The notes beneath the pieces are model-generated. The model was not told where the DNA came from and did not search any database. It saw only the letters and a program-made list of their open reading frames with translations. From the NCBI GenBank assembly GCA_008933995.1, contig WARS01000065.1:2670612-2734611 (forward strand): 64,000 nt of DNA, written 5' to 3'. A program made the translations under genes and the position numbers. This stretch comes from Datnioides undecimradiatus. Its lineage: Eukaryota; Chordata; Actinopteri; Lobotiformes; Datnioididae. Positions 28,201-62,645 of the stretch are shown in pieces. How positions within the stretch are numbered: position 1 is the first letter of the stretch; each line of letters begins with the position of its first letter.

Positions 28201-31200
28201 CTGTATTTTAAATTTGATAACTATAACTCTGCAGTGTCCAATGCGTTCACGTTGTTTGCAAGTGAAATACAGTGTTTTATTTGAATGTAATGACACCTAA
28301 AGGCCTTTCTGCTTGTCTTGCAGGGGTCGATCGGGCTTCCAGGTGTCCCAGGTGTTGATGGACAGAAGGTAAGGTTTCTAGTATGAAAAAAAATTCAAGC
28401 AATACATTAGTTTTCTTTTTATCCTTTTGGGAGATTTCATTTAGGGGGGTTATAATATTTTAAGACTCAGGTGGCTTGTTCAGATGGATAATTTTTAAAT
28501 TGCAGCAAACTTATGATTCTTAATTGTGAATTGTGCAACCTTTCTAAGTTTAGCCCAAACATGCTCCCTCACAAAATACAACACATGAAATGGCTCAGAA
28601 AGCCAGCCTCCACCCACACCTGAAAGTATTTTATCTTCAAAGGGCTCACTTTAACATACTTAGAGTTTTCATTAGTCTTTGTGGCCATGTGTTGCACTTC
28701 ATATTTGAAAAGTTCTGCCATGCATTCAGACAATTTCAAACCACTATCCTATTTGGGAGAAATCCCCTGGGCTGCATCTTCAAGTCTTAACCACAAAGTA
28801 GCGTTTCGAGCCGCCTGTGAATCTGCTCACACTCTCAGCTCATTTCTGCATTTGATTCTCAGAGCGAATAAAGGAGACACAGTGCAGGTGTTGCACAATG
28901 GGGGGAAACGTGGAATCATAAACACCAGAACAAATGACGGTACAAGTGATGAGAATGAATGGGGAGATGATATGAGAGGCACCATCCTTCAAATCTCAAA
29001 CATGCATTTACAAAGATATAAGCGGAGAGAGGCACGCATAGATGTAATAGGAACCAGAGTAAAGAAGTTTCATTTTGGAGTGAAAGCCATACTGACTCTG
29101 GAGACAGCAAAAGCTGAAGGCCTAATTCCATACTTGTGTAAGGAGTGGGGTTTGCCAGCACCCATGAAATAGAACTCCAATGCTGTGCAATGCAGTCATA
29201 AAACAGAATCTGTTATGGTATGTGACTGTCACTCATGCAGAAAGTTGGAGTCTAAAGCAGCAAAGGCTGCTCTGCCAGCAGTGGCAGGTTGACTGGCAGA
29301 CATCATATTGATCTGACATAGATATCCGCTAAAAGGGGAGGATCACTAACGCAAACCTTATCAGCCTCGGTTTAGGAGTTTTTTAATCAGACTCCATCAT
29401 CATTATGGCAATATATCATTGCCATTATGTCAATGAGTCCCATATGTAGACTGATAGATGACACAAGATTCCAGCATTTATGAAGAGTTTTACCACCAGT
29501 GTGTAGCTGAAAGGGACATTCTCCATGCACAGATGCTACATGGTGATATTCCCACAATGCCTCTGGAAAATAAAGCATTATGAGAAAAATGAAAATTGTA
29601 CGAAACTGGAAAAAAACCCCAGCAATATACAATAACCAAATTTTGCTTCCAGTATGGCAGGTAACAAACAGCCTATTGATGTGTATTGATGTGTAATTTT
29701 ATTTACATAATAGATCATTTTATTTTCTATTCTGGCTTCATGGATTAGCGTCATCCACTTAAAGCTATCTCTGTGGGTTGAGAAAGCTGCTGCTCTTCTA
29801 AAAGGCTAATGATGTGGTAGGTTTGCAAAGATCAGGAGGTTAATTGTTTCTGGCAACCGATGGATTGAGGTTGGTTTCTCAGTGAGCACCACAGTGAACA
29901 GGGCTTCAGACTCACGCTAACAACGGGCTGGCATTCATCACATGGACTTGGCTTTTCTTCTTCTTCTTCATGTTCAGAACCAAACCAGAGATAATTAAGC
30001 TTATAATCAGCTTGTTTATCCTCTCTACTTTCAGACTTAGTTTGCAGTTCAATATTTGATCTTTGAACTTTTTTGTAGAAGTTTATGGAATTTATTCAGC
30101 CCTAACGTGGAGAGTCCGTTTGTCTCAATATAATTAAAAACATTATCCATCCTATCAACTGCTCCATTATCAACTGCCCTGCAAATGCATAACACCTGTG
30201 CAATGATGACACAAAGTTAACCTCAGTTAAGGTTAGAGGTTATCTCTTTTTGGTTAAAAAAAAAAAAAAAGTATCTCTTGACCTGAAATCAGAGTTCCCA
30301 TTGCTGAATTAGCACACTGAATGCAGCCACTGTGTGTGTATGTTATGCTGTCCATAGGGGGATGTTGGCATCCCAGGACTGGACGGTATCCCCGGAGCCA
30401 AGGTCTGGTACGCACACATTCTGTGTGCTCTTATTCTTGTAAATTCACTGCGGTCATAATCTTTTTTTATTGTTTTAAAGTCATTTATAATTTTCCATCT
30501 CTTGCCATCAAAGAATCATCCTCCTGTTTTAAGTGTTGGACATTTTTGTTGCTATTTTTTCATCCCGATTTGTCTTCTTATACATATTTTAATTCATCTG
30601 ACTTTAGAAAACATATGTACAATACATGTACAATATATAAATTTGTGGTAGACCTTCTCACTTGTTATTTGTTTGAATATCGTATTTGCATGATCTATAT
30701 TTGCCACATCAGTAAGAACATGTTACCTTCAGCTATCAATACGTGTCATTAAATGTAGATGTACATAAAGGTTTTAATTAATTGAAATTTTGGTGAAACA
30801 ACACTGTTAGTTAGATTCTGGCCTGTTAATGTTGACAACTTTCAGTAACAACTGTGTAAGATTTTAAAAAAAATGCTGATAGCTCAGGGTCTGTCTGGGG
30901 AAAAAGCAGCCATAACACAAGAGGCTTTCCATAATCTAACATGAATTTAACCCCAGATACAATCTGACCCTTAGTGGCTGCAATAATTCCCCAACTGAAG
31001 CCAACTCCCCCTGAGCTTTTCTGTCTTTAACACTCTGCTTTCTTTCCCAACAGGGTGAAATGGGAGAGCGAGGTGAAAAGGTAACCCGCTAATTCAAGTC
31101 GGCAAACGTTATTGTTAGCATCAGTCATGATATCCCACCATGTGTTGGAACAGCCGTCACAATAAAATGACGGCAGCTCTGCTTTTACTTCACGCAGCTC

Positions 31201-43200: not shown

Positions 43201-46200
43201 AAACTCATGAGAGGAGCGTGGAGCTTTATAGGAGGCATCATCCATGTCAATACTGCTTAACATTAAGGAAATTGAAGCTTCGTGCTTGATGTTGCTGACA
43301 ATGAAAGAAGGGGAAACTGACTCGTGATCAGCAGTTCTCGATGACGCTTATTAAATCCAGGTTGCAGGAGAACAGCAGTAACCTACTTTGTCATTAAGCA
43401 GTTTGTTTTTTTGCCGTGTAGGGCGAGAGAGGTGACCACGGGCCACCAGGGAAGGGTGAGAAAGGAGAAATTGGACCCGTCGGACCAAAGGTCAGTTATT
43501 CAAGTGCATGTGCGCAAACACAAATGGCATGGATGCAACAAACTGGAGCATTTAGCAGTACGGCCGTTCACAAATGTCTTTTGAACCGTTATTTATAGAT
43601 TTCTGCTGCCACCTAGAGCCTCACAGATTAAAGCACATATGATAAATTCCCAGAGTTTTAAAAGACTAAAAAAGTAGAATGCATCCCTTCAGCTCATCAA
43701 ATGTTCATTGATGTTAACAAAGAGAGCTGGCAAAACCATTATAGCCATGTAATAAGGTCAAGGCTTTCCCTGGAGTATGTATAAAGCGAACCAAATATAA
43801 GTGCATTTAACGTTGTTTATGTCTGGCACTGATCCAGCAGGTAGCTTAAGCTCCAGTCTAAACGTAGGTCAGATCAGATCTGTTTCACATCCTATTAGAA
43901 ACCCCCAGATGTGAAAGCCCTGCTTTATCAGTGCCAGAGTTCAAATAAACACTTCCTGCACAGCCTGGCAGTTATGGCATATTAAAAGCTGGTTATTTAA
44001 GTGCAGCTGACTGAGTTGCTCTCTTGGGAGGAGTTAAATAGGTTGATGATATTTCCTTTGCGAAATATGTATCACACGTGTAATGATTTTTATATGATGA
44101 ATTTGGATTGAACCCATAAAGAGAGTTTGTTTTAGGTTTTTCGTCAATTTATGTTCATATCTCAAGTACTCTCAAGTCCCTCATATCATATCATGACTCT
44201 TGTCCTCATCTTTGTTTTCTTATGTATGGCAGGGTTCACAAGGAGAGTCTGGTACCCCTGGTCCTAAAGGGTCAAAGGTGAGCATGGCCGATATGTTTTC
44301 TTTAAATCTGGTGAACACAGCATCTTAATTAGTTCATCCTCTAATTAGGTTTTGCAGGTGATGCAGATCTTGGATTTCCTCCTTCCGATGTTCTGTTTTT
44401 TCAGTCACATATGTTGTGAGACCAGTTACAAGACCTTGTTGAACCGTAATGATGAGACTTATGTGATATTTGACTTCAAACCATTGATACTGAGATTATT
44501 TGCAATTCTTTGATTTTATTATTTTTTTTTTTGTTCTGTTTTCTTTTGTGTTTGTCTCGTCACATTAGGGGGAAACTGGAGACAAAGGAGACTTGGGACC
44601 TATTGGCCCGAGGGTGAGCAAGCATATCACAGAAGATAAATGCCTCTATTCACAGCCCAATCGAGTGGTTTCATGATGCTGCATGCTGTGTACCATTTAA
44701 AACTTGAATTCCCCATTATCATGCTACATTACAGACAGTTATTTCATATATTTATATTCAGTCAAAGTGTAACTACACATTGGTTACCACCAGGTGGCAG
44801 CAGTCAGACCTATAGAAGTATTCAAAATAGAAGCACACTGATGCTGGTCTGATGTATAAATCAGGTGTGTAGGATTAAGGAACGTGCACAAAATGTGTCT
44901 CTGAATGTCAAATATGTGCAGGGACCCCCGGGGCAGAAAGGAGACCAAGGAGCCACTGAGATCATTGACTACAATGGAAACATTCAGGAGGCTTTACAGG
45001 TCAGACAAATCTTAGCTCATTTGCCTCATTCTTGTTGCCTCAAAACCTGCATCTGCAAGAGAAGATGGCACAGTAAAACATATATGTCACATTGCAGCTC
45101 TGTTTCTAATGAGTTTTTGTAAATACATAAATGCAATAAATACATTTTTGCAGGAAGACGTGAGGTGTGGAGATAGAGAGTTTGAGTATTTGCCCCTGAT
45201 TACAGCTCTAGCTGTTGTTCTTCTTATATGATGAAAGAACCATGCAGCATCATCAGATTAACATTACTCAGGTTATTGGCTCACACCTCCTCTTTAATAA
45301 ATGACTAATTTTGAGGGTGTATCTGTGTAGAAATGTGCTGACACAAAGGTTTCTTTACTGTATGACTTCTGCAATCATATCTCTCACCTCTTCCCCATTT
45401 CCACTCCTTTGGCCTACTGCAGAAGATTACCACTATTACAGTAACGGTAATTAGGCTCTGTGTATTCTGTGTACTGTCTCGCCAAATGATTCATTTTTAT
45501 CCTTGCATGGACCCAACCCAGCCCCTCCCTTGGTTTGCACGCCCTTGTTGTATTTGTGCTCCCTCACCCAGCAACATGTTTGCTTAACAGCGATTGAAAC
45601 AGTGTTCAGTGTTTATGCCTCTGTGTGACTGACGCTACAAGCTGCCTGCATTGCTGGTTGTCTGCCTGAATGTCAGTGAATCACCCTTTTTAAAACAACC
45701 TCGTGAAATTATATTTCAAAGTATGGTCTTACAAATCTCTCTCGATCCCTCAGACTCTCACCAAGCATCATATTGACTCATATGATAAGACCCTAAGATC
45801 AATCCTGCTTTATCAGTCAATCTTCTGGTCTAACCTTGAAAGACGGTCTCCGGTCAAAATCTATTTTTAAGCACATCTTAATTTCTTTCTTTTCTTTTTT
45901 TTTTTTTTTACTTTATTACATATTCCTTAATTGTTGTGTTTAATTAATGTCTAATCAAATTTCCCTGCAGCAAATCTGGAGCCAGGTAGTATTCCAAGAT
46001 AGAAAAACTGTGCAAATTGTTGAGAAAGTGGAAGGAAGTAGGTTCATGTCAGTGATCGCCGATTCCCCGTCACCAGCCAAGTATTGTATTTTAGTACACA
46101 ACCTAACTAAGCTAAATATAACGACGTTTATCATTAACCTTCCATGCTTTTTTTCATTTTTATAATGATTAAGAGTGTTTTTAGAGTGATTAAAGCAACA

Positions 46201-49200: not shown

Positions 49201-52200
49201 GTACTAATCCCGCCTTGTTCATGTCACTCATACCTCCATAACCACACAGGGAGCCTCCGGCTTGGACGGCAAGCCCGGAATTAGGGTGAGTGTCATGTGA
49301 CCAAGAGGCTTCGCCACCCAACTTCTGCCTACTTTTCTCCCTCTCACCCTCCATACAGCCCCCCCGCCCCTTTTTCCCTCAAATTCTTCACCACCGTCAC
49401 CCCAGTTTACTGTATTTCATTGTGACTGAAAAAGGTAATCTAAGCTTTTATTTTATGTTTACATCTTAAGCCAAGATTCATTAGTTAAAGTAAGCCACAC
49501 TTAACTGAACCCTCAGGATAGCGACCATACAGACAGCTGTTATAGCAGGCACCTCAAGGCTCTCGTTGTGTCCCGTGTTGCATTAACTCAGCATTAACAC
49601 ACACTCATACATTAACTGTGTCGGCAGTGTTGTAAATGTCTGCTGTGGCCAATGCACGTGGACCAGCAGCAGCTCTGTGTGCTGGTTTGTAGGTGAAACC
49701 AGATGGGAATATTGTACAAATGTGGATGCTAGACACGATTTTTGCTTTCCATCAGTTTATTGCTCGGAAGATCACACTTTACTTTGAAATACCTGCTGGA
49801 GGCAAATGATTTTAACTCACTGTGACAACACTACTCTTTGCAGGGCACGGATGGGCCTCCGGGTCCAGCTGGTCCAGCTGGGCCGAAGGGTGACATAGTA
49901 AGGATGACATTTAAATTCTATTTAAATGGAGTGTGTTCTGTAGGATTTATGTGACTGTAACGCTGACTCCTTTGTATTTGTAGGGTGAGAGAGGGCCACA
50001 GGGCGAACCAGGGCCAAGGGGACCTTATGGACTTCCTGTAAGCATGATGATATTATGTTGTAACCTTTTATTTATCCAGGTGTGTGTCAAGATAGGTTGG
50101 CAGCGCTGTTGTGTAGGGTTGTGCATATGCACTTATGACCAGTTGATGAAAATTGATTGAATATTGATATAATTACACTGAATCATATCAGTGTTTGCTC
50201 TTTTTATTTTTACTCATGTATTGAACAAGATATGATCTGTACATACGTATGTCCGTTGAGTACATACTGATGATGCAGCTAATGTTCTTTGTTTTCAGGG
50301 AGCTGCTGGAACACCAGGCTTGGATGTAAGTCTCATAAACTTTGCTCAGTTTCCTCTCTGTCAGCAATGTGACATGACTTCAAACGGCATCAGCTAAAAA
50401 ACTAGGAAGGAGGAAAAATCATAAAGAAGGGTCAGGCACCTCAGAGCAGAATCAACTGCACTGACAAATCAAAACCAAGGTTGTGATATTTGAAATAAAG
50501 CATCAGGAGAGAGCTCATTAAATAATTAGTAGAGCAATGCTTGATATATACAAGCAATCATACACGTGCATACTTATTTATTATTATTATTATTATTATT
50601 ATTTATCAACACCATCTCACAAGTATCAAAAGTACATTTCCGACCCTATAAGCAACATTATGTCAAAGAGTACTATCCCATAAGTGAGCAACTAGGCACA
50701 AGTTAAAGGTGACCAATGAATGACAGCGTTCTAAGTTTCAATGCTATAATCCAATTATTTGCTCAGTCTGAGTGAATAAAAACATTATGATTACAGTGTC
50801 CCAGTATGAGTCCTCTCACTTCTGTGTGCTTAATATTCAACATATGTATACACAGATAAGAGCAACATCTTGGTTAATTACAATATTTATAAATACCAAA
50901 TATGGCGGCAGTAAGACTTTCTTTAAGACTGCATTTCTTGTCACACATCGCTCCACTGTCTTTTTGTCTCTCATTTATTTTTACTTTTCACCCTCTTTCA
51001 GCTTCTTTTTCTTCTTGTTTTTTTCTTTTATTAGTTCGATCCCAATGTGTCCTCTTCAGCTCTGTCAGGACGGGTCTCTTACTTTTGCACAGTACAGAGT
51101 AATTAAGTAGAGTTGTACTTTTACAGGGGTTGCCAGGCTTAAGGGGAGAGAAGGGCGACGTTGGTGAAAGAGGAGAAAAGGTAGATGTAGAGAGGACATA
51201 ACTTCTTGTCAACCCCTTAACATTATAGAGGACTGATGTCAATGGACAGTGACAGGAAATATGCTGTAGAGGTGTTTTATGTAGCTCCTTTAATGCTAAG
51301 TTTAGTTTTCTACTCATTCCAAATGTAAAGATATTGTCTGTGGTTGTTGGGAGGAATAGAGCGGTTGAATTTAATATTGTCTTCCTAACGAACTATCGAT
51401 AGTGTTACAGATGTACTTAACATGCTCATTTAAGTTTGTTTTGTAGCGCTGTAACTCATTTAAGAGACGAACCAGCAGACCAGCTCAGTGATTGGATAAC
51501 AACTCCATACAGCGTAAAGTTGCCTTTGCGTAAAATATCATCTTGGGTCCAGCTTTTGTTCTCCACTTTTGAATGATTTATCATCTCATTCCTCAAAATC
51601 ACAAGCCCAATCTCATTCTGAGGCATCAACAAAGTGATCTCAACACGTTAGACCAAACAAGTCCATTGACAACAGGCTGTCAAAATTCACGTTTGTTTGA
51701 ATTTCCATGCATGAGCATACACCTGAAACATTTCACGTCCATGAGTTCTTGAGCCTGTTAACAACTTCTTTCTGCTTGTTTGAACAGTACTTCATACATT
51801 TCAGTGCTTATTTTGTATGTTTCCACACTTACTAACACAAGTAATGTGTTTCTTAGATGTTTTATGTCTTTGAGAAACTGTATCCCATTCCTTGGCACGT
51901 AGAGATAAACATGGGTCTCTGTACATACCGACTGTTTTCCAACACAGAGTAGACGCTAGTGCTGCTTTTCATGCAGGTATTTAGCAACACTGGAATACAA
52001 CATTTGGAATATTATTGATTACAAACCAAAAATTACACATTTCATCTTCTTAGGGACTGGAGATGTACCTGTGATATTACATTTGTCAACTTGTTACATA
52101 ATTGCAAGGTTCTTTATAACATCAGATAACTCCATAGATATTATCACGATAACTCGAATTTAGACTGTTTTATTCTGCATTTTGTTATTCTCTCATGCAT

Positions 52201-55047
52201 GCACTGAATGAAATACAATGGCTCCTAACCCAGATCTGAAGGGATACAGTTTGAACGTTTTCAGTGTGTTGTAGATTTAATTCTGTCTCGCTGGAGGTTT
52301 TTTTCCCTGCTACTCTTTCTCATCCTTCGTGCCCTTGACACACCCTTTTGGCGATCAGCTGTTTTTTACTCCTTCCTCCTGTACTATTCCCTATTCACTT
52401 TTTTGTCCTCCTCCTGTCCTGAGGAATGTTTTTTGGAGTACCCAGTACTGTCTGATATCCCCTCCTATCTAACATTGATCATGTCTCTTTCTCCTTTTGT
52501 GGGCTACAGCATCCCTTTTAATCACTCCCCTCCTAATAGCAGTGCTGTCCCAAATGTTCAAAAACTGATGTTAACTTGACCAAATCGTTGTATCCACAGG
52601 GGGAGAAGGGAAAGAAGGGCAAAAAAGGGCCTAAGGGCGAGAAAGGAGAACAGGGTGCCCCTGGATTAGATGCACCCTGCCCATTGGTATGTCCGAACTG
52701 TGAGCTGGAAAACCCCTCCCAGCCGTGTAGAGCAGTCGTCCCAAACAAGGATGAGCGCCCTGTGGCTAAACCGATACCCATCTTCCACCACACCATAGCA
52801 ACCTGAAACACAGAGTCTATTACTCTTCTCGAACTATGCAGTCCAGATGCAAAAACATGCCATTAAATGCTGAAAACATATCATTTTTGACTGGATCGTG
52901 GTATCATACAGCTCACAGGGCAGCTCCTCCCTCACCCCGTCCCCTTGTGTCCGTCATAGTGGACGGAGGCAGGGGTTAAGGGTCATCCACCTCTCTCCCA
53001 GTAACACTCCTAGGTCATCTTTGCAAACAGGGTTTCCGGGGATTTAAGGGTGAAAAGGGGGAACCAGGGCAGCCAGGTCTGGACGGGCTGGATGCCCCAT
53101 GCCAATTGGTACAGTATTTCTCTTTTTCCTCCACCTCTTAACCATGCATGCCGCTCACCTTCAGTCATTACTGAAAGCAAACCATGCATGACTCGAGAGC
53201 TTGACGATCATGAACACGCCTTATTTAAATCTATATTTTCCATTCATGGGTTTTAGGGAAAAAAAAACAACACACACAAGCATATACTTTACTAACTTCC
53301 TGACCGCAAGCAGCCTCTTTTAGATAATACACATGATTACAAGTGAAATATACAGAATAAACCTGTGATTATTGGTGTAATTGATACTTAAATCTATCCC
53401 TCTAACTGAATCCTTCCACTTCCCTGATTAAACTGGAAAAAAAAGTTCTGCTTAAATCCTGTTTCCTCTCAGCTGATTCCTCCATGGACCCAGTTACCTA
53501 TTTAACCTGATGCTAACACAGACTCCTCTACTGATGCCCATGCTACCAGCACATAGACCCCTCCTCTACTCTGTTAACTCCCCCTTTTTCCCTTCCTGTA
53601 TTTGTACCAATTGGGCCAGACGGTGACACAAAGAGAAAACCAGTAGAATTAGAAAATGAAGAGTTTTTATTTTCATGCTTTTTCTGAATATGATAGGCAT
53701 CAAAGTTTTAACACTGTGGGTGGACGTGTTAGTGTTTAAAGTCTAGAACTTTAAAAGGCCACAGTGATTGTGCAATCATAGTGTATGTATGTAGCAAAAT
53801 GAAATAAGGTAAGAAACCATCCATGCATCACTTTTGTCATCTCATCAAATCACATCTACATTCATTGACTTGAGCCAGGTACAACATCTTTATTGTTTAG
53901 AAACTTCTCGGTTGTAATAAAATCAGAGAGTAGATTCATCAACATACTGATGTGCATGAGCCACTGTACATTTTGCTGTGTATGACCTGCATGAATGAGA
54001 ATACACTTGCGGTTGTCTTTAGATGTAATATTTCATATGAATTTACCGTAACACCTAGAGGTAGAAAGGAACTTAATTTCACATCGAGTGCAGTGATTTG
54101 CAGAAATGGAATTTGTGATGGAAATGCTTGTCACAAGTCAGCAGCTCCAGCTGAAACAAATCTATATCAGTTCTGAGGCCTCAATACCCAGGCAGAAGTT
54201 TGCTATCCCCATGTAAAAAACAAATTCAAAACAAAGTAAAATTCATGTGTTTCATCGAAGCTCTCGGATGAAAACTTCTCCATTTGCTTCTGATTTGATG
54301 CAGAGCTTGATTTCACTCAGTTTGGCCGTTTGCCTGTGTCAAAACTTTCCATGATGTAACTGTGGTGTAGGCAGGATGGGAGATTTTGTCTCTATCTCCA
54401 ACATGCGATTTCAGCTTATTAATTGGAATGCGTTCTTGCCACGAATACCTAAAAGTCTGACATATGTCTTGTGTTCTTGTGAGTTACAGTTGACATTTAT
54501 CACACTTTGGTCCACTGTGTAAGCTGCATCTGTTCATGACAAACCCCCCATTCCAGTTTCAGTCCTCATAGTTTTTTTTTTTTCCCTTCCCTGCTACTCT
54601 CCTCTAAACAGGGCCCAGATGGATTACCAATGCCTGGGTGCTGGCAGAAGGTAAGACAAGTATATGTTTGAGTAACATGACAGGTTTCAGAAGCGCACCT
54701 ACACATTTACACAATGAACAAAATATAAGGGCCAATACTTTGAAGCTATAGTAAAGGGACTACTTGTACCTTTAGAGACTGGAAAGGGGAATCAAAATCA
54801 TAGTTTGGACTGTGAATCAGTTACTCTTTCCTGTGAAATGAGTATTGAGAGGGTTCCTAATATTTTGTTCCCTCCTTGTCAGTTCATTTTTTCACATGTG
54901 GGTCTCTGCTTCCTTATGTTTGCATGGGTTTTTCTGTCAAATGAGTCATAACAAGTGTGTCAAACCAGACTGTCAAGTCATGAAACAATGTAAAAAAAAC
55001 ACGTCCATGTTCATGTCCTTCTCTCTCCTGTGTTTTTCTTGCAGTGA
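10221..55047 (+). CDS. col25a1: Collagen type XXV alpha 1 chain (CLAC-P homologue), 3' part of a multi-exon gene
   Basis: Type II transmembrane collagen of the MACIT group (with XIII and XXIII). In mammals it acts at the cell surface or is shed by furin, is needed for motor axon entry into muscle, and its ectodomain binds amyloid-beta fibrils. Seen here: 33 coding exons plus a terminal exon, all GT-AG, all phase 0, lengths 24-117 bp, mostly multiples of 9 encoding Gly-X-Y triplets. Order: end of COL1, NC2 linker (18712), long COL2, NC3 linker (44922-45446), COL3, then NC4 with DAPC and PMPGCWQK cysteines. With the 53031 version of the C-terminal exon the window encodes 547 residues; the human protein from the same point is about 508 by recall. 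The difference matches the two extra exons at 48808 and 49250. The exons for cytoplasmic, transmembrane and furin-site segments were looked for in 1-10220 and not found. COL13A1 and COL23A1 are excluded by the NC2, TEIIDYNGN and PMPGCWQK segments, which match type XXV. Confidence 0.95.
10355..10590. repeat. Two oppositely oriented fragments of the same teleost repeat, copy 3
   Basis: The left part (about 10370-10425) reads TTTAGCTTGGCGCAAAGATC then GGAAGCAGAGGGAAAC, the strand opposite to copies 1 and 2. The right part (about 10490-10550) ends in GAGAGTGGTATCAATCTT, the same strand as copies 1 and 2. Confidence 0.5.
11403..11419. repeat. Poly(A) tract, 17 A
   Basis: Homopolymer run in an intron, directly visible. 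Confidence 0.9.
12139..12158. repeat. CCCA-type short tandem repeat
   Basis: CCCCCCACCCACCCACCCAC, followed at 12186-12206 by a CT-rich stretch. Simple repeat only. Confidence 0.8.
12444..12470 (+). CDS. col25a1: col25a1 exon: GDQGDQGPR (last Gly-X-Y of COL1)
   Basis: 27 bp, phase 0, acceptor CTTCTGCAG, donor GTATGT. Human GEQGDQGPR differs at one residue. Confidence 0.9.
17683..17742 (+). CDS. Candidate col25a1 cassette exon [20 protein letters not shown]
   Basis: A 60-bp open segment, a multiple of 3 and phase 0, preceded by a good pyrimidine tract and TTTAG and followed by GTTTGT (acceptable donor with G at +5). It starts with two Gly-X-Y triplets, as all neighbours do, then leaves the collagen pattern, so it would extend the NC2 linker. 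It sits between the exons encoding GDQGDQGPR and [10 protein letters not shown] know no counterpart in the human reference protein. It could be an alternative exon, a fish-specific exon or a chance pseudo-exon. Confidence 0.45.
18470..18487. repeat. Poly(A) tract, 18 A
   Basis: Homopolymer run about 225 bp upstream of the NC2 exon. Confidence 0.9.
18712..18783 (+). CDS. col25a1: col25a1 exon: NC2 linker with basic LIKRRLIK motif
   Basis: 72 bp, phase 0, acceptor CTGCTCAG, donor GTAGTG. Encodes 24 residues starting [10 protein letters not shown] and ending LIKRRLIK, identical to the human segment as I recall it. No Gly-X-Y pattern, so it separates COL1 from COL2. The basic cluster corresponds to human residues 181-188, reported as the amyloid-beta-interacting region. 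The leading ATG is internal, not a start codon. Confidence 0.93.
18784..19417 (+). other. col25a1 intron
   Basis: 634 bp. No additional exon, repeat or motif recognised. Confidence 0.75.
19418..19534 (+). CDS. col25a1: col25a1 exon: long proline-rich COL2 start
   Basis: 117 bp, 39 residues, phase 0, acceptor CACACAG, donor GTGAGT. Starts [15 protein letters not shown] and ends [15 protein letters not shown]. The longest coding exon here. It has one GPP triplet more than human by recall. Confidence 0.95.
19535..20733 (+). other. col25a1 intron
   Basis: 1.2 kb. No further exon or recognisable element. Confidence 0.75.
20734..20769 (+). CDS. col25a1: col25a1 exon: [12 protein letters not shown]
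   Basis: 36 bp, phase 0, acceptor GCTATAG, donor GTAAGC. Corresponds to human GEPGKPGEQGLM. Confidence 0.9.
20803..20940 (+). repeat. Degenerate teleost interspersed repeat, copy 4 (opposite orientation to copies 1-2)
   Basis: Contains TGAACTTTTTGGGAAA, CTTTCAGTTAGATGAAAGC and CAGCTTAGCTTAATAT, collinear with the complement of copies 1 and 2. Heavily diverged. Confidence 0.4.
22866..22903. repeat. Purine-rich GGA/GAA tract
   Basis: All-purine stretch apart from a single T, ending in five GAA/AAG units. Low-complexity sequence. Confidence 0.75.
26747..26773 (+). CDS. col25a1: col25a1 exon: GPEGPEGQK
   Basis: 27 bp, phase 0, acceptor TTCATAG, donor GTAAGA. Equivalent to human GPLGPPGQK. Confidence 0.9.
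26774..28323 (+). other. col25a1 intron
   Basis: About 1.55 kb. AT-rich, no additional exon recognised. Confidence 0.75.
28324..28368 (+). CDS. col25a1: col25a1 exon: [15 protein letters not shown]
   Basis: 45 bp, phase 0, acceptor CTTGCAG, donor GTAAGG. Human GSIGAPGIPGMNGQK aligns without gaps. Confidence 0.92.
28369..30357 (+). other. col25a1 intron
   Basis: About 2 kb. The 163-codon ORF inside it (28681-29172) has no domain or collagen pattern and crosses no splice signals; I treat it as chance. A 15-A run lies at 30256-30270. Confidence 0.7.
30358..30402 (+). CDS. col25a1: col25a1 exon: [15 protein letters not shown]
   Basis: 45 bp, phase 0, acceptor TCCATAG, donor GTCTGG. The donor is weaker than its neighbours (C at +3, G at +5 kept), so this exon may be skipped at some rate. 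Equivalent to part of human GEPGLPGAVGQNGIPGPK. Confidence 0.85.
30403..31053 (+). other. col25a1 intron
   Basis: 651 bp, very AT-rich, no feature seen. Confidence 0.75.
31054..31080 (+). CDS. col25a1: col25a1 exon: GEMGERGEK
   Basis: 27 bp, phase 0, acceptor CCAACAG, donor GTAACC. Equivalent to human GEPGEQGEK. Confidence 0.9.
31959..32030 (+). repeat. Diverged direct repeat, unit A
   Basis: Shares GAGGAGCCA(G/A)AT, GTTAAC(G/A)TAAA and AAAGAGCCAGCAGG words, in order, with unit B about 380 bp downstream. Probably two copies of one mobile element. Confidence 0.6.
32343..32424 (+). repeat. Diverged direct repeat, unit B
   Basis: Partner of the unit at 31959. Similarity appears to continue weakly past the end (TTTCTAACTGAAAT versus CTTCTAACTGAGGAAT). 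Confidence 0.6.
32690..32945 (+). repeat. Teleost interspersed repeat remnant (TTTCATGGCAATCCATC family)
   Basis: Contains TTTCATGGCAATCCATC, TGAGATATTTCA twice, CATGGAGGCGCTAGAGGA, GGATCACCAAAGTCATTA and AGTCTGGACCACAGAAGT. I know this word set as a very common dispersed fish repeat. Family name not assigned. It encodes nothing. Confidence 0.65.
33360..33404 (+). CDS. col25a1: col25a1 exon: [15 protein letters not shown]
   Basis: 45 bp, phase 0, acceptor ATCACAG, donor GTACGT. Human GDAGENGPKGDTGEK aligns without gaps. Confidence 0.93.
34981..35005. repeat. (TG)12 microsatellite
   Basis: Perfect dinucleotide run, directly visible. Confidence 0.95.
35130..35330. other. GC- and CpG-enriched intronic patch
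   Basis: Unusually many CG dinucleotides (ATGCGGTAACACGG, GGTATGGCGAGCACGG, GTCGGACCGCG) inside otherwise AT-rich intron. No splice-flanked ORF. May be an intragenic CpG island, an enhancer or a foreign insertion. Confidence 0.35.
35862..35966 (+). repeat. Possible tRNA-derived SINE head plus hairpin
   Basis: TGGCACAGCGG fits a Pol III A box and GTTTTGAATCC is close to a B box, but the spacing (about 20 nt) is shorter than in a tRNA. A perfect 6-bp inverted repeat CAGGGC/GCCCTG with a 6-nt loop lies at 35949-35966. Family unknown. Confidence 0.3.
37291..37305. repeat. Poly(A) tract, 15 A
   Basis: Homopolymer run, directly visible. Confidence 0.9.
38075..38107 (+). CDS. col25a1: col25a1 exon: [11 protein letters not shown] (collagen interruption)
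   Basis: 33 bp, phase 0, acceptor TTCTCAG, donor GTGAGA. 11 residues, so it breaks the triplet register (GSS-AA-GIK). Human [11 protein letters not shown] shares the same interruption, which supports gene identity. Confidence 0.95.
38108..38531 (+). other. col25a1 intron
   Basis: 424 bp, nothing recognised. Confidence 0.75.
38532..38567 (+). CDS. col25a1: col25a1 exon: [12 protein letters not shown]
   Basis: 36 bp, phase 0, acceptor TATTACAG, donor GTAAAG. Human GEPGESGRPGQK. Confidence 0.92.
38568..40555 (+). other. col25a1 intron
   Basis: About 2 kb. The 150-codon ORF at 38838-39290 has no domain and is treated as chance. No other element seen. Confidence 0.75.
40556..40600 (+). CDS. col25a1: col25a1 exon: [15 protein letters not shown]
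   Basis: 45 bp, phase 0, acceptor TGTGTAG, donor GTAAAT. Identical to the human peptide as recalled. Confidence 0.95.
40601..42116 (+). other. col25a1 intron
   Basis: About 1.5 kb, no exon or repeat recognised. Confidence 0.75.
42117..42179 (+). CDS. col25a1: col25a1 exon: 21-residue Gly-X-Y block ending GLPGTK
   Basis: 63 bp, phase 0, acceptor TTGTCAG, donor [18 protein letters not shown] then GLPGLPGTK. One residue (L for I) differs from human. Confidence 0.95.
42180..43421 (+). other. col25a1 intron
   Basis: 1.2 kb, nothing recognised. Confidence 0.75.
43422..43490 (+). CDS. col25a1: col25a1 exon: [11 protein letters not shown] / [12 protein letters not shown] with a G-X imperfection
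   Basis: 69 bp, 23 residues, phase 0, acceptor CCGTGTAG, donor GTCAGT. The GPP-GK-GEK step lacks one residue of a triplet. Human GPPGRGERG has the same break, so it is a conserved helix interruption. Confidence 0.94.
43491..44232 (+). other. col25a1 intron
   Basis: 742 bp. Holds a reverse-strand CTCF-like motif (43606-43619). Nothing else. Confidence 0.7.
43606..43619 (-). promoter_or_regulatory. CTCF-like motif (weak)
   Basis: The reverse complement reads GCTCTAGGTGGCAG, close to the vertebrate CTCF core. Motif only, no occupancy evidence. Confidence 0.25.
44233..44277 (+). CDS. col25a1: col25a1 exon: [15 protein letters not shown]
   Basis: 45 bp, phase 0, acceptor TATGGCAG, donor GTGAGC. 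Human GKQGESGTRGPKGSK. Confidence 0.94.
44569..44613 (+). CDS. col25a1: col25a1 exon: [15 protein letters not shown]
   Basis: 45 bp, phase 0, acceptor CACATTAG after a long T-rich tract, donor GTGAGC. Human GDRGEKGDSGAQGPR. Confidence 0.93.
44614..44921 (+). other. col25a1 intron
   Basis: 308 bp, with the CTCF-like motif described at 44787 and nothing else. Confidence 0.7.
44787..44800 (+). promoter_or_regulatory. CTCF-like motif
   Basis: CCACCAGGTGGCAG agrees well with the vertebrate CTCF core consensus. Located in an intron, divergent to the weaker site at 43606. Motif match only. Confidence 0.35.
44922..44999 (+). CDS. col25a1: col25a1 exon: end of COL2 and NC3 linker (TEIIDYNGN)
   Basis: 78 bp, 26 residues, phase 0, acceptor ATGTGCAG, donor [17 protein letters not shown] followed by [15 protein letters not shown]. 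The non-collagen part matches human [15 protein letters not shown] and is a diagnostic type XXV segment. Confidence 0.96.
45000..45422 (+). other. col25a1 intron
   Basis: 423 bp, nothing recognised beyond the pyrimidine-rich acceptor region of the next exon. Confidence 0.75.
45423..45446 (+). CDS. col25a1: col25a1 micro-exon: KITTITVT (NC3)
   Basis: 24 bp, phase 0, acceptor CTACTGCAG, donor GTAATT. Human has RITTLTVT at this place. Too short for ORF-based detection and the smallest coding exon here. Confidence 0.92.
45447..46802 (+). other. col25a1 intron
   Basis: About 1.36 kb. Includes a 15-T run (45895-45909) and, downstream of it, a 15-nt splice-flanked segment (45971-45985) discussed under findings. 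Confidence 0.7.
45895..45909. repeat. Poly(T) tract, 15 T
   Basis: Homopolymer run, directly visible. Confidence 0.9.
46803..46847 (+). CDS. col25a1: col25a1 exon: [15 protein letters not shown] (start of COL3)
   Basis: 45 bp, phase 0, acceptor TGTTCAG, donor GTAAAA. Human [15 protein letters not shown]. Confidence 0.94.
47024..47068 (+). CDS. col25a1: col25a1 exon: [15 protein letters not shown]
   Basis: 45 bp, phase 0, acceptor CTTTCAAG, donor GTGAGT. Human GEQGSPGIPGMDGEQ. Confidence 0.92.
47204..47284 (+). CDS. col25a1: col25a1 exon: [13 protein letters not shown] ... GLPGLP
   Basis: 81 bp, 27 residues, phase 0, acceptor TGTCTCAG, donor GTAAGA. Human [13 protein letters not shown] block aligns without gaps. 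Confidence 0.95.
47408..47470 (+). CDS. col25a1: col25a1 exon: [18 protein letters not shown] + GPS
   Basis: 63 bp, 21 residues, phase 0, acceptor TCATTTAG, donor GTAAGT. Human GANGMKGEKGDSGMPGPQ followed by GPS. Confidence 0.95.
47541..47565. repeat. Perfect inverted repeat in a short intron
   Basis: AATTTCACATT, GTG, then AATGTGAAATT: an 11-nt stem with a 3-nt loop, about 50 nt upstream of the next exon. May fold in the pre-mRNA. Confidence 0.7.
47616..47666 (+). CDS. col25a1: col25a1 exon: [17 protein letters not shown] (triplet interruption)
   Basis: 51 bp, 17 residues, phase 0, acceptor TTTGCAG, donor GTGAGT. Begins with Ile-Ser rather than Gly, giving the GPS-IS-GPP break also present in human (GPSIIGPPG). 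Confidence 0.95.
47667..48521 (+). other. col25a1 intron
   Basis: 855 bp, nothing recognised. Confidence 0.75.
48522..48548 (+). CDS. col25a1: col25a1 exon: GPHGFPGPK
   Basis: 27 bp, phase 0, acceptor ATTTTCAG, donor GTAAGT. Human GPHGLPGPK. Confidence 0.93.
48808..48888 (+). CDS. col25a1: col25a1 exon: [16 protein letters not shown] ... GPLGLP (not in recalled human reference isoform)
   Basis: 81 bp, 27 residues, phase 0, acceptor TTTTTCAG, donor GTGAGT. Clean Gly-X-Y block with strong splice sites, hence a real exon. The recalled human protein goes straight from GPHGLPGPK to GTDGPMGP, so this exon may be alternative or lost from that isoform. Confidence 0.92.
48889..49249 (+). other. col25a1 intron
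   Basis: 361 bp, with a (GT)10 run at 49029-49048 and nothing else. Confidence 0.75.
49029..49048. repeat. (GT)10 microsatellite
   Basis: Dinucleotide run, directly visible. Confidence 0.9.
49250..49285 (+). CDS. col25a1: col25a1 exon: [12 protein letters not shown] (not in recalled human reference isoform)
   Basis: 36 bp, phase 0, acceptor ACCACACAG, donor GTGAGT. With the exon at 48808 it accounts for the 39-residue excess over the human sequence. Confidence 0.9.
49286..49843 (+). other. col25a1 intron
   Basis: 558 bp, nothing recognised apart from a short C-rich patch near 49355. Confidence 0.75.
49844..49897 (+). CDS. col25a1: col25a1 exon: [18 protein letters not shown]
   Basis: 54 bp, phase 0, acceptor TTTGCAG, donor GTAAGG. 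Human GTDGPMGPHGPAGPK. Confidence 0.94.
49984..50037 (+). CDS. col25a1: col25a1 exon: [18 protein letters not shown]
   Basis: 54 bp, phase 0, acceptor TTTGTAG, donor GTAAGC. The [12 protein letters not shown] end is identical to human. Confidence 0.95.
50299..50325 (+). CDS. col25a1: col25a1 exon: GAAGTPGLD
   Basis: 27 bp, phase 0, acceptor TGTTTTCAG, donor GTAAGT. Corresponds to human GKDGEPGLD. Confidence 0.9.
50326..51126 (+). other. col25a1 intron
   Basis: 801 bp, AT-rich, with a TTA trinucleotide repeat at 50578-50604. No exon. Confidence 0.75.
50578..50604. repeat. (TTA)n microsatellite, about 9 units
   Basis: Trinucleotide run, directly visible. Confidence 0.85.
51127..51180 (+). 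CDS. col25a1: col25a1 exon: [18 protein letters not shown]
   Basis: 54 bp, phase 0, acceptor TTTTACAG, donor GTAGAT (A at +5, weak). Human GFPGPRGEKGDLGEKGEK. The weak donor precedes the two alternative-looking C-terminal exons. Confidence 0.93.
51181..52599 (+). other. col25a1 intron
   Basis: 1.4 kb, nothing recognised. Confidence 0.75.
52600..52686 (+). CDS. col25a1: col25a1 alternative C-terminal exon, type XIII-like ([11 protein letters not shown])
   Basis: 87 bp, 29 residues, phase 0, acceptor ATCCACAG, donor GTATGT (strong). Lys-rich Gly-X-Y block starting [13 protein letters not shown] and ending [11 protein letters not shown]. That end matches the COL13A1 ending as I recall it ([11 protein letters not shown]) better than the human type XXV one. 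It ends at the same position as the next exon (DAPC-X-L), so the two look mutually exclusive. If the donor is not used, the frame stays open to a TGA at 52804-52806. Confidence 0.85.
52687..52806 (+). CDS. Candidate read-through extension: alternative C-terminus of col25a1
   Basis: 40 positions continuing in frame after [20 protein letters not shown] first, then a basic/proline stretch ending HHTIAT and TGA. A variant poly(A) signal ATTAAA lies at 52862-52867. The cysteine-rich start and the ATTAAA are suggestive, but 40 open codons occur by chance often enough that this stays unproven. Confidence 0.3.
53031..53108 (+). CDS. col25a1: col25a1 C-terminal exon, standard type XXV form ([11 protein letters not shown])
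   Basis: 78 bp, 26 residues, phase 0, acceptor GCAAACAG, donor [22 protein letters not shown] then [10 protein letters not shown]. Human differs at one residue (V for F). The DAPC cysteine probably takes part in C-terminal disulfide bonding of the trimer. Confidence 0.95.
53109..54611 (+). other. col25a1 intron
   Basis: 1.5 kb, no third alternative C-terminal exon found. A T-rich tract (54572-54583) belongs to the next acceptor. Confidence 0.75.
54612..54650 (+). CDS. col25a1: col25a1 last coding exon: [13 protein letters not shown] (NC4)
   Basis: 39 bp, phase 0, acceptor CTAAACAG, donor GTAAGA. Identical to the human C-terminus as recalled. It is followed by an intron, with the stop codon in the next exon. 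Confidence 0.96.
54651..55044 (+). other. col25a1 final intron
   Basis: 394 bp. Ends in TTTTTCTTGCAG. If retained, the reading frame would continue beyond WQK. Confidence 0.8.
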
Positions 55048-56071
55048 TCACTCTAACCTGAAACGCATGGAGTTTGTAAATAATGCTTCTTTTATGGTAT
55101 TTATAGTTTTTTTAATGGATAAAAAAGTCTAAAAGAAAAGAAGTCTATGTGTACGATGATACGAAAAAGAGTTAACCGTCCCGAGTGTCACGCCCCAAGC
55201 TGCTTCTACTCACATCACCGTGTGGAAAAAGAAACCCATGTGTGTCTGCTCTCTCACACCCACATCGTGGTGGAGTTCAGATCCTTGGCTGGCAGCAGAA
55301 CTTGTTTCTGTAGTCTTTGCATGGCTCGGACTGGAGCGTCGCAGCTTGGCCAGATTCACAGGGGTTGAAAAGCAGACGTGAAAAGGAGCAGGAGGAGGAA
55401 GTGGAGGAGGGGGATCTGGACTGGCTCTCTAACACCAAACGCTAGGTGTTTTGTGTTGTTTCGTCTCAACAAGCTCACCACCCATCCATGCAGCACCATT
55501 TTCTAAAAGACTAAAAAAAAAAAAAGAGACTGTGCCAAACAGAACATTGCACCCCGACCCTGCAAAAGCATGAGTAGTATACTGAAACTATATTTATATG
55601 TATTGTACATACATTGTCACTGTTTTGTGGTAACGTCATGGCTTCTGCAGAAAAGAAAAAAACAACACTAACATAAACAAAACAACCCCTGAGCTCTGAA
55701 TTAGTAATTTTTGCTTTCCTTTAATCTTCCCAAGGGAGTCACGCCATGGCTGGTAGCCTGAAAATCCCCAGAAAGTAAAGCTGTTGGTTATTGTTGCTTT
55801 ATTGTGGTGATGCCTGCACAGAGGGTATGATATCAGCAGGTTTTCACTGTTGCACTCTCGTGGCTCAGCATCAACACCCTCATCATCATCATCACCAGTG
55901 TGGTACCTCCCAGCCACACATCTCCGGAAAAGAGGGGAGAACTTAGCAGACTCTCTGCACTGATGGGAAAACAAATCAGGCTCACGTGGATTTGAGATTG
56001 GACAGGCCTGCTCGGAGAACCCCCTCTGAGCACGGGAATGGATTTTGCAGGAGAGTCGCCAAGAGTCTCAT

Positions 56072-59683: not shown

Positions 59684-62645
<2,962 letters not shown>

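Follow-up and report, generated by a model that had tools for sequence, protein, structure and literature searches.

Why does a collagen gene carry, shortly before its terminal helix exon, two neighbouring exons either of which could end the triple helix? The question is raised by 64,000 nucleotides (nt) of DNA from the fish Datnioides undecimradiatus (contig WARS01000065.1, positions 2,670,612 to 2,734,611 of the forward strand, assembly GCA_008933995.1; hereafter the window, with positions counted from its first letter), which hold a plus-strand piece of a collagen gene; its Gly-X-Y exons, small, numerous and in phase 0, run from 10221 to 54650. Near the end of this piece lie exon A (52600..52686, +; 87 nt, 29 residues) and exon B (53031..53108, +; 78 nt, 26 residues). 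We propose, with a probability of about 0.7, that A and B descend from an old duplication and serve, through alternative splicing, as two homologous forms of the exon closing the collagen XXV triple helix.

Exons A and B in col25a1

Both exons are in phase 0, flanked by AG and GT (donors GTATGT in A and GTACAG in B) and separated by 344 nt, and they share a 5' partner in the upstream exon at 51127..51180 (+; donor GTAGAT). Either of them continues in frame into the terminal helix-end exon (54612..54650, +), which holds the second conserved cysteine. The first-pass annotation, which had described two phase-0 exons 344 nt apart that both join the terminal exon, thus stands on this point. The codon pattern of LDAPC, the motif near the end of both exons, occurs twice in the window over both strands against an expected 0.02, and none of 100 shuffles reached two. 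A tblastn comparison of A with B gave an E value of 9.6e-6, to be read against the 0.004 to which composition alone brings other collagen exons of the window. Over the last 24 nt the two exons differ at six nucleotides with a single residue change, which was equalled in 0.66% of neutral placement simulations. Chance similarity of A and B is rejected by the pattern count, by neutral simulations against col13a1 and by a genome-wide LDAPC search (both below), and to judge from the sequence both are real coding exons ahead of the terminal exon.

We identify the gene as fish col25a1, which encodes collagen XXV, a membrane collagen of nerve and muscle, because of its CWQK end and its neighbour ETNPPL. 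The C-terminus has two spaced cysteines, LDAPC..GCWQK, and among CW(Q/N/H)K endings we take CWQK to denote type XXV, CWNK type XIII and CWHK type XXIII. Downstream of the collagen gene and on the same strand, a reading frame at 60654-60892 (+) matches residues 58-112 of 6tor, ethanolamine-phosphate phospho-lyase (E 8.5e-25), and holds part of ETNPPL, a gene formerly named AGXT2L1. The literature, cited here and below for the passages that bear on each point, gives W(H/N/Q)K as the end of vertebrate MACIT collagens and places AGXT2L1 near COL25A1 in pufferfish (PMC4678570), and it describes a human subject in whom COL25A1 exons 33-38 were deleted together with the neighbouring ETNPPL (PMC12669723).

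The same pair in a paralogous gene

The decisive comparison was with the genome of the animal itself, 581 Mb in 497 contigs. A search with the exact terminal-exon pattern, from which diverged copies would escape, returned three matches, namely the window itself (CWQK), C13:970865 (CWNK) and C467:1258523 (CWHK), and none in a reversed control. The latter two genes are called col13a1 and col23a1 because of the assumed assignment of letters to types in W(H/N/Q)K; 19.4 kb and 19.5 kb, respectively, were examined around their matches. In all three genes the CW(Q/N/H)K codons directly abut a GT donor (54650-55048; G000:C13:970893; G000:C467:1258551), and the stop codon therefore seems, on this reading, to lie in a separate last exon, which in the window would open with the TGA at 55046..55048 (+).

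The col13a1 region contains counterparts of both exons, A13 (G000:C13:967697-967783; 87 nt, 29 residues) and B13 (G000:C13:968404-968481; 78 nt, 26 residues), which match the col25a1 exons (A25 and B25) in order and in lengths. A25 and A13 are identical at 23 of 29 residues and B25 and B13 at 23 of 26, whereas each of the four possible A-B pairs of the two genes agrees at 16 of 26; with shared glycines removed, these values become 15/21, 16/19 and 9/19. The charges of the two exons also recur. In col25a1, exon A has seven K+R and four D+E (net +3 per chain) and exon B three and four (net −1); in col13a1, A has six and four, and B again three and four. The remark in the first-pass annotation that A is lysine-rich is thus upheld, and the difference from B is kept in the second gene. 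Its labelling of A as XIII-like and B as XXV-like was not borne out, because each gene has both exons.

In col23a1 we found one exon that is A-type by length and sequence (G000:C467:1257474-1257560; 87 nt, GDRGAVGKRGLKGQKGEQGPPGLDQPCPV). A B-type exon was not found there: a tblastn search of the 19.5 kb with B returned the A-type exon and collagen stretches at scattered places, and none of the three frames of the 919 nt 3' of the A-type exon contained a B-like reading. Across the whole genome the pattern of LDAPC plus GT had seven exact matches, of which four are the pair exons of col25a1 and col13a1 and three have no Gly-X-Y in front; the reversed control had four.

Comparison of col25a1 with col13a1 gave a dN/dS of 0.05 for A (pS 0.70) and of 0.04 for B (pS 0.68), values obtained near synonymous saturation, and such low ratios between like exons point to purifying selection on both. 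In simulations that distributed as many differences neutrally, sequences as conserved and free of a stop arose in 1 of 20,000 runs for A and in 0 of 20,000 for B. Both copies thus show coding constraint against the col13a1 of the same genome, and the identities, dN/dS and simulations together argue that each exon is constrained as a unit and has a separate counterpart in the second gene. These results support the view that the pair is an old exon duplication shared among MACIT genes, with both copies coding and constrained, in agreement with the ancestral MACIT duplication suggested in the first-pass annotation. A published MACIT tree places XXIII and XXV as sisters with XIII outside, its authors naming unequal rates as an alternative (PMC4678570). 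Given this tree, the presence of the pair in XIII and XXV implies that it was probably present before the earlier of the two vertebrate genome duplications and that XXIII lost B, an age drawn from one genome, short sequences and one published tree. Because the pair is also found in a sister collagen gene, the probable splicing choice looks very old.

Among solved structures, phmmer with the ending of exon A listed 30 distinct sequences at E values up to 10, none of them a MACIT collagen and the best (0.0019) a designed collagen peptide; in Pfam the ending scored 21.5 bits to the collagen repeat, below the cut-off of 27.2. Of 15 pattern matches in prokaryote and viral collections, one viral and 14 in genome contigs, not one was preceded by Gly-X-Y within 20 residues. 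Rfam and tRNA searches had no matches.

Splice signals and rival explanations

With a 9-base donor matrix built from 26 other col25a1 exons, the donors of A and B score below all 26. Predicted U1 pairing in col25a1 is −4.8 for A and −4.1 for B, the latter being the weakest of 30; the values in col13a1 are −4.8 and −4.7, and the lone A of col23a1 has a strong donor (−8.6). The donor of exon A, TTG/GTATGT, is identical between col25a1 and col13a1. On the six intron bases alone the B donor is low (2 of 28 lower). The acceptors of both exons are average. Within −60 to −15, both A exons have a yUnAy branch point and both B exons lack one, as do several other col25a1 model exons. The donor of another exon, at 30358-30402 (+; 15 residues), is the unusual AAG/GTCTGG, among the two lowest of 28 in its intron part, and that exon is possibly decaying or spliced otherwise.

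RBFOX proteins bind GCATG and favour the exon upstream of the motif. GCATG lies at +38 and +78 after B25, within two copies of TGCATG (53145..53150 and 53185..53190, +; 37 and 77 nt past the exon), and at +35, +110 and +118 after B13; none was found within 400 nt downstream of A in col25a1 or col13a1. Stretches of 120 nt with at least two GCATG make up 0.9% of the window and 1.6% of the col13a1 region. At least two copies within 120 nt downstream are found for 2 of 31 exons in col25a1 (B and 43422-43490) and for 1 of 14 examined in col13a1 (B). Downstream of the two B exons, GCATG ranks first among the 1,024 five-letter words (p 1.2e-4, uncorrected). The exon at 43422-43490 (+; 23 residues) that shares this feature also has a triplet one residue short (GK) in its helix.

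Three features make regulated alternative use of the two exons likely: weak A and B donors in both genes, the strong donor of the lone col23a1 A, and GCATG downstream of both B exons. The splice signals fit alternative use, with reservations. Several observations weigh against this view. Scored on its six intron bases, the A donor is ordinary (7 of 28 lower), and U1 pairing weaker than that of A occurs in 2 of 28 other col25a1 exons and in 2 of 12 other col13a1 exons examined, so weak donors are not diagnostic. The top word upstream of B, CCGTC, has a lower p value (3.5e-5) than GCATG, which makes the corrected significance of GCATG weak. The exon lengths of 87 and 78 nt are multiples of three, so that all combinations of A and B are in frame, and at 344 nt the intron between them is of ample length for splicing, the shortest model intron being 86 nt. 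All comparison, moreover, is confined to one genome. The human gene offers something on both sides. Its isoforms have 654, 642 and 645 residues. In favour of the proposal, the third (NM_001256074.3), which predominates in fibroblasts, has exons exclusive to it, and exon 36 is alternatively spliced in those cells (PMC12669723). The three residues by which the 642- and 645-residue isoforms differ match the difference between A and B (29 minus 26), which may be coincidence; the text gives no sequence for the alternative exons. Against it, the human 3' deletion takes six, three and two exons from three variants, which does not fit a simple exchange of A for B (PMC12669723).

The equation of exon B with human exon 36 would come solely from counting back from the stop exon. 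A numbering against the human gene, for which exon lengths and the exons published for Gly382, Gly400 and Gly497 were used, was set aside, as it misfits in places, and part of it is shifted by the exon at 44922-44999, overlooked by early scans. The latter (+; 26 residues), in which a non-collagenous stretch starts, is missed when glycines are scanned for.

Frame and intron length, as read from the sequence, do not force mutual exclusion, and other means by which it might be enforced gave little. For B, exclusion by a distant branch point was rejected on account of an AG-free zone of 15 nt. Of three comparisons of predicted duplexes among three introns, each against six mononucleotide shuffles, two fell within the shuffle range; the third, which paired the upstream intron and the A-B intron, reached −140.7 and slightly exceeded the strongest of its six shuffles (−137.3), in a test that is weak since the predicted duplexes covered most of each sequence. 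Six inverted repeats were noted between 51181 and 54611, of which one touches exon A and another lies just past the B donor. Because nothing found forces exclusion, exclusivity would have to be imposed by regulation or by selection against proteins that contain both exons, and the argument for it in the first-pass annotation is wholly one of protein logic.

The same facts of frame and intron length would be explained if A and B were independent cassette exons, with both, either or neither used and no true switch, and many single in-frame exons of human COL25A1 are indeed skipped in fibroblasts (PMC12669723). Use of both would place an APCPL interruption and an extra cysteine in the helix, which a collagen with an interrupted helix might tolerate. 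Nevertheless, the two exons share the LDAPC-x-L ending, such that joining both repeats the motif and skipping both loses the first conserved cysteine, and COL13A1 is listed, its exons unnamed, among genes with mutually exclusive exons (PMC5740500). We therefore regard independent cassettes as rather unlikely, though they deserve to be taken seriously. Exon A might otherwise be an alternative last exon whose donor is ignored, with a read-through of 39 open codons (three cysteines) to a stop and cleavage after the ATTAAA at 52862 (whole stretch 52687-52867, +); the human deletion counts suggest that shorter variants differ in 3' structure (PMC12669723). The col13a1 counterpart reads on for only three codons, and the open frame after A25, not being kept there, is probably due to chance: at least 39 codons of read-through occur in 6 of 29 other model exons, ATTAAA occurs 44 times in the window, and the TTG/GTATGT donor is the same in both genes. 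A terminal exon A is thus improbable. A reading of A as a relic in decay, or as a recent copy made locally within col25a1, is next to impossible and was rejected, since A25 is nearer to A13 than to B25 and the dN/dS values and neutral simulations reveal strong constraint between the paralogues. A splice switch between A and B accordingly appears to be the best explanation of the sequence features.

A putative switch and known systems

In the proposed scheme, the pair would have arisen in a single MACIT gene before the split into XIII, XXIII and XXV and been kept in XIII and XXV. Each exon supplies the first conserved C-terminal cysteine (LDAPC) at equal spacing to the second (GCWQK), and the choice between them would alter the last Gly-X-Y triplets, lysine-rich in A and net −1 in B; from the charge counts per chain, col25a1 homotrimers would differ by 12 charges. 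Most mRNAs would contain one of the two exons, with B, which has the poorer splice signals, raised through its downstream GCATG in RBFOX-rich cells such as muscle and neurons, and A used elsewhere. The choice might shift charge, and hence ligand or glycosaminoglycan binding, beside an unchanged two-cysteine end; we infer glycosaminoglycan binding for the basic stretch of A. The fullest version of the idea is possible but tentative: a switch that predates the two vertebrate genome duplications, is live in XIII and XXV and lost in XXIII, in which RBFOX selects B in muscle and neurons and A prevails elsewhere, and in which a basic glycosaminoglycan-binding end and a weakly acidic one tune the binding of receptors where nerve meets muscle.

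In MACIT collagens the last 34 residues are described as very conserved and of unknown role (PMC4678570). If two of the three genes keep the same pair of alternative ends, the question of the tail's role turns into one of comparing two natural isoforms. Cranial dysinnervation and arthrogryposis result from variants in COL25A1 (PMC12669723), and a congenital myasthenic syndrome from variants in COL13A1 (PMC7848082); if the proposal is true, the reading of variants and the design of expression constructs should include both exons.

In a full-text literature search, no title, abstract or passage described the A/B pair, supplements and most subscription papers being outside its scope, and some gene annotation databases likely list the exons already. 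Splicing of collagen XXV was called inadequately documented in 2015 (PMC4678570); skipping of exon 29 in mouse Col25a1 (PMC4890022) and, in smooth muscle, a shift in COL13A1 splicing at an unnamed exon (PMC9343278) are on record. Tandem homologous mutually exclusive exons have been surveyed in animals (PMC9741552, PMC4465641, PMC5740500), and COL25A1 goes unmentioned in the main text of these three surveys. Human COL13A1, the paralogue whose fish counterpart has the A/B pair, is named in a passage of the last that gives the gene and not the exons. Unlike members of that exon class, A and B differ in length by three residues and are known here from sequence, their exclusive use being putative. 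As in that class, which is enriched in genes of brain and skeletal muscle (PMC9741552), they are neighbouring homologous coding exons of equal phase, open, constrained and old.

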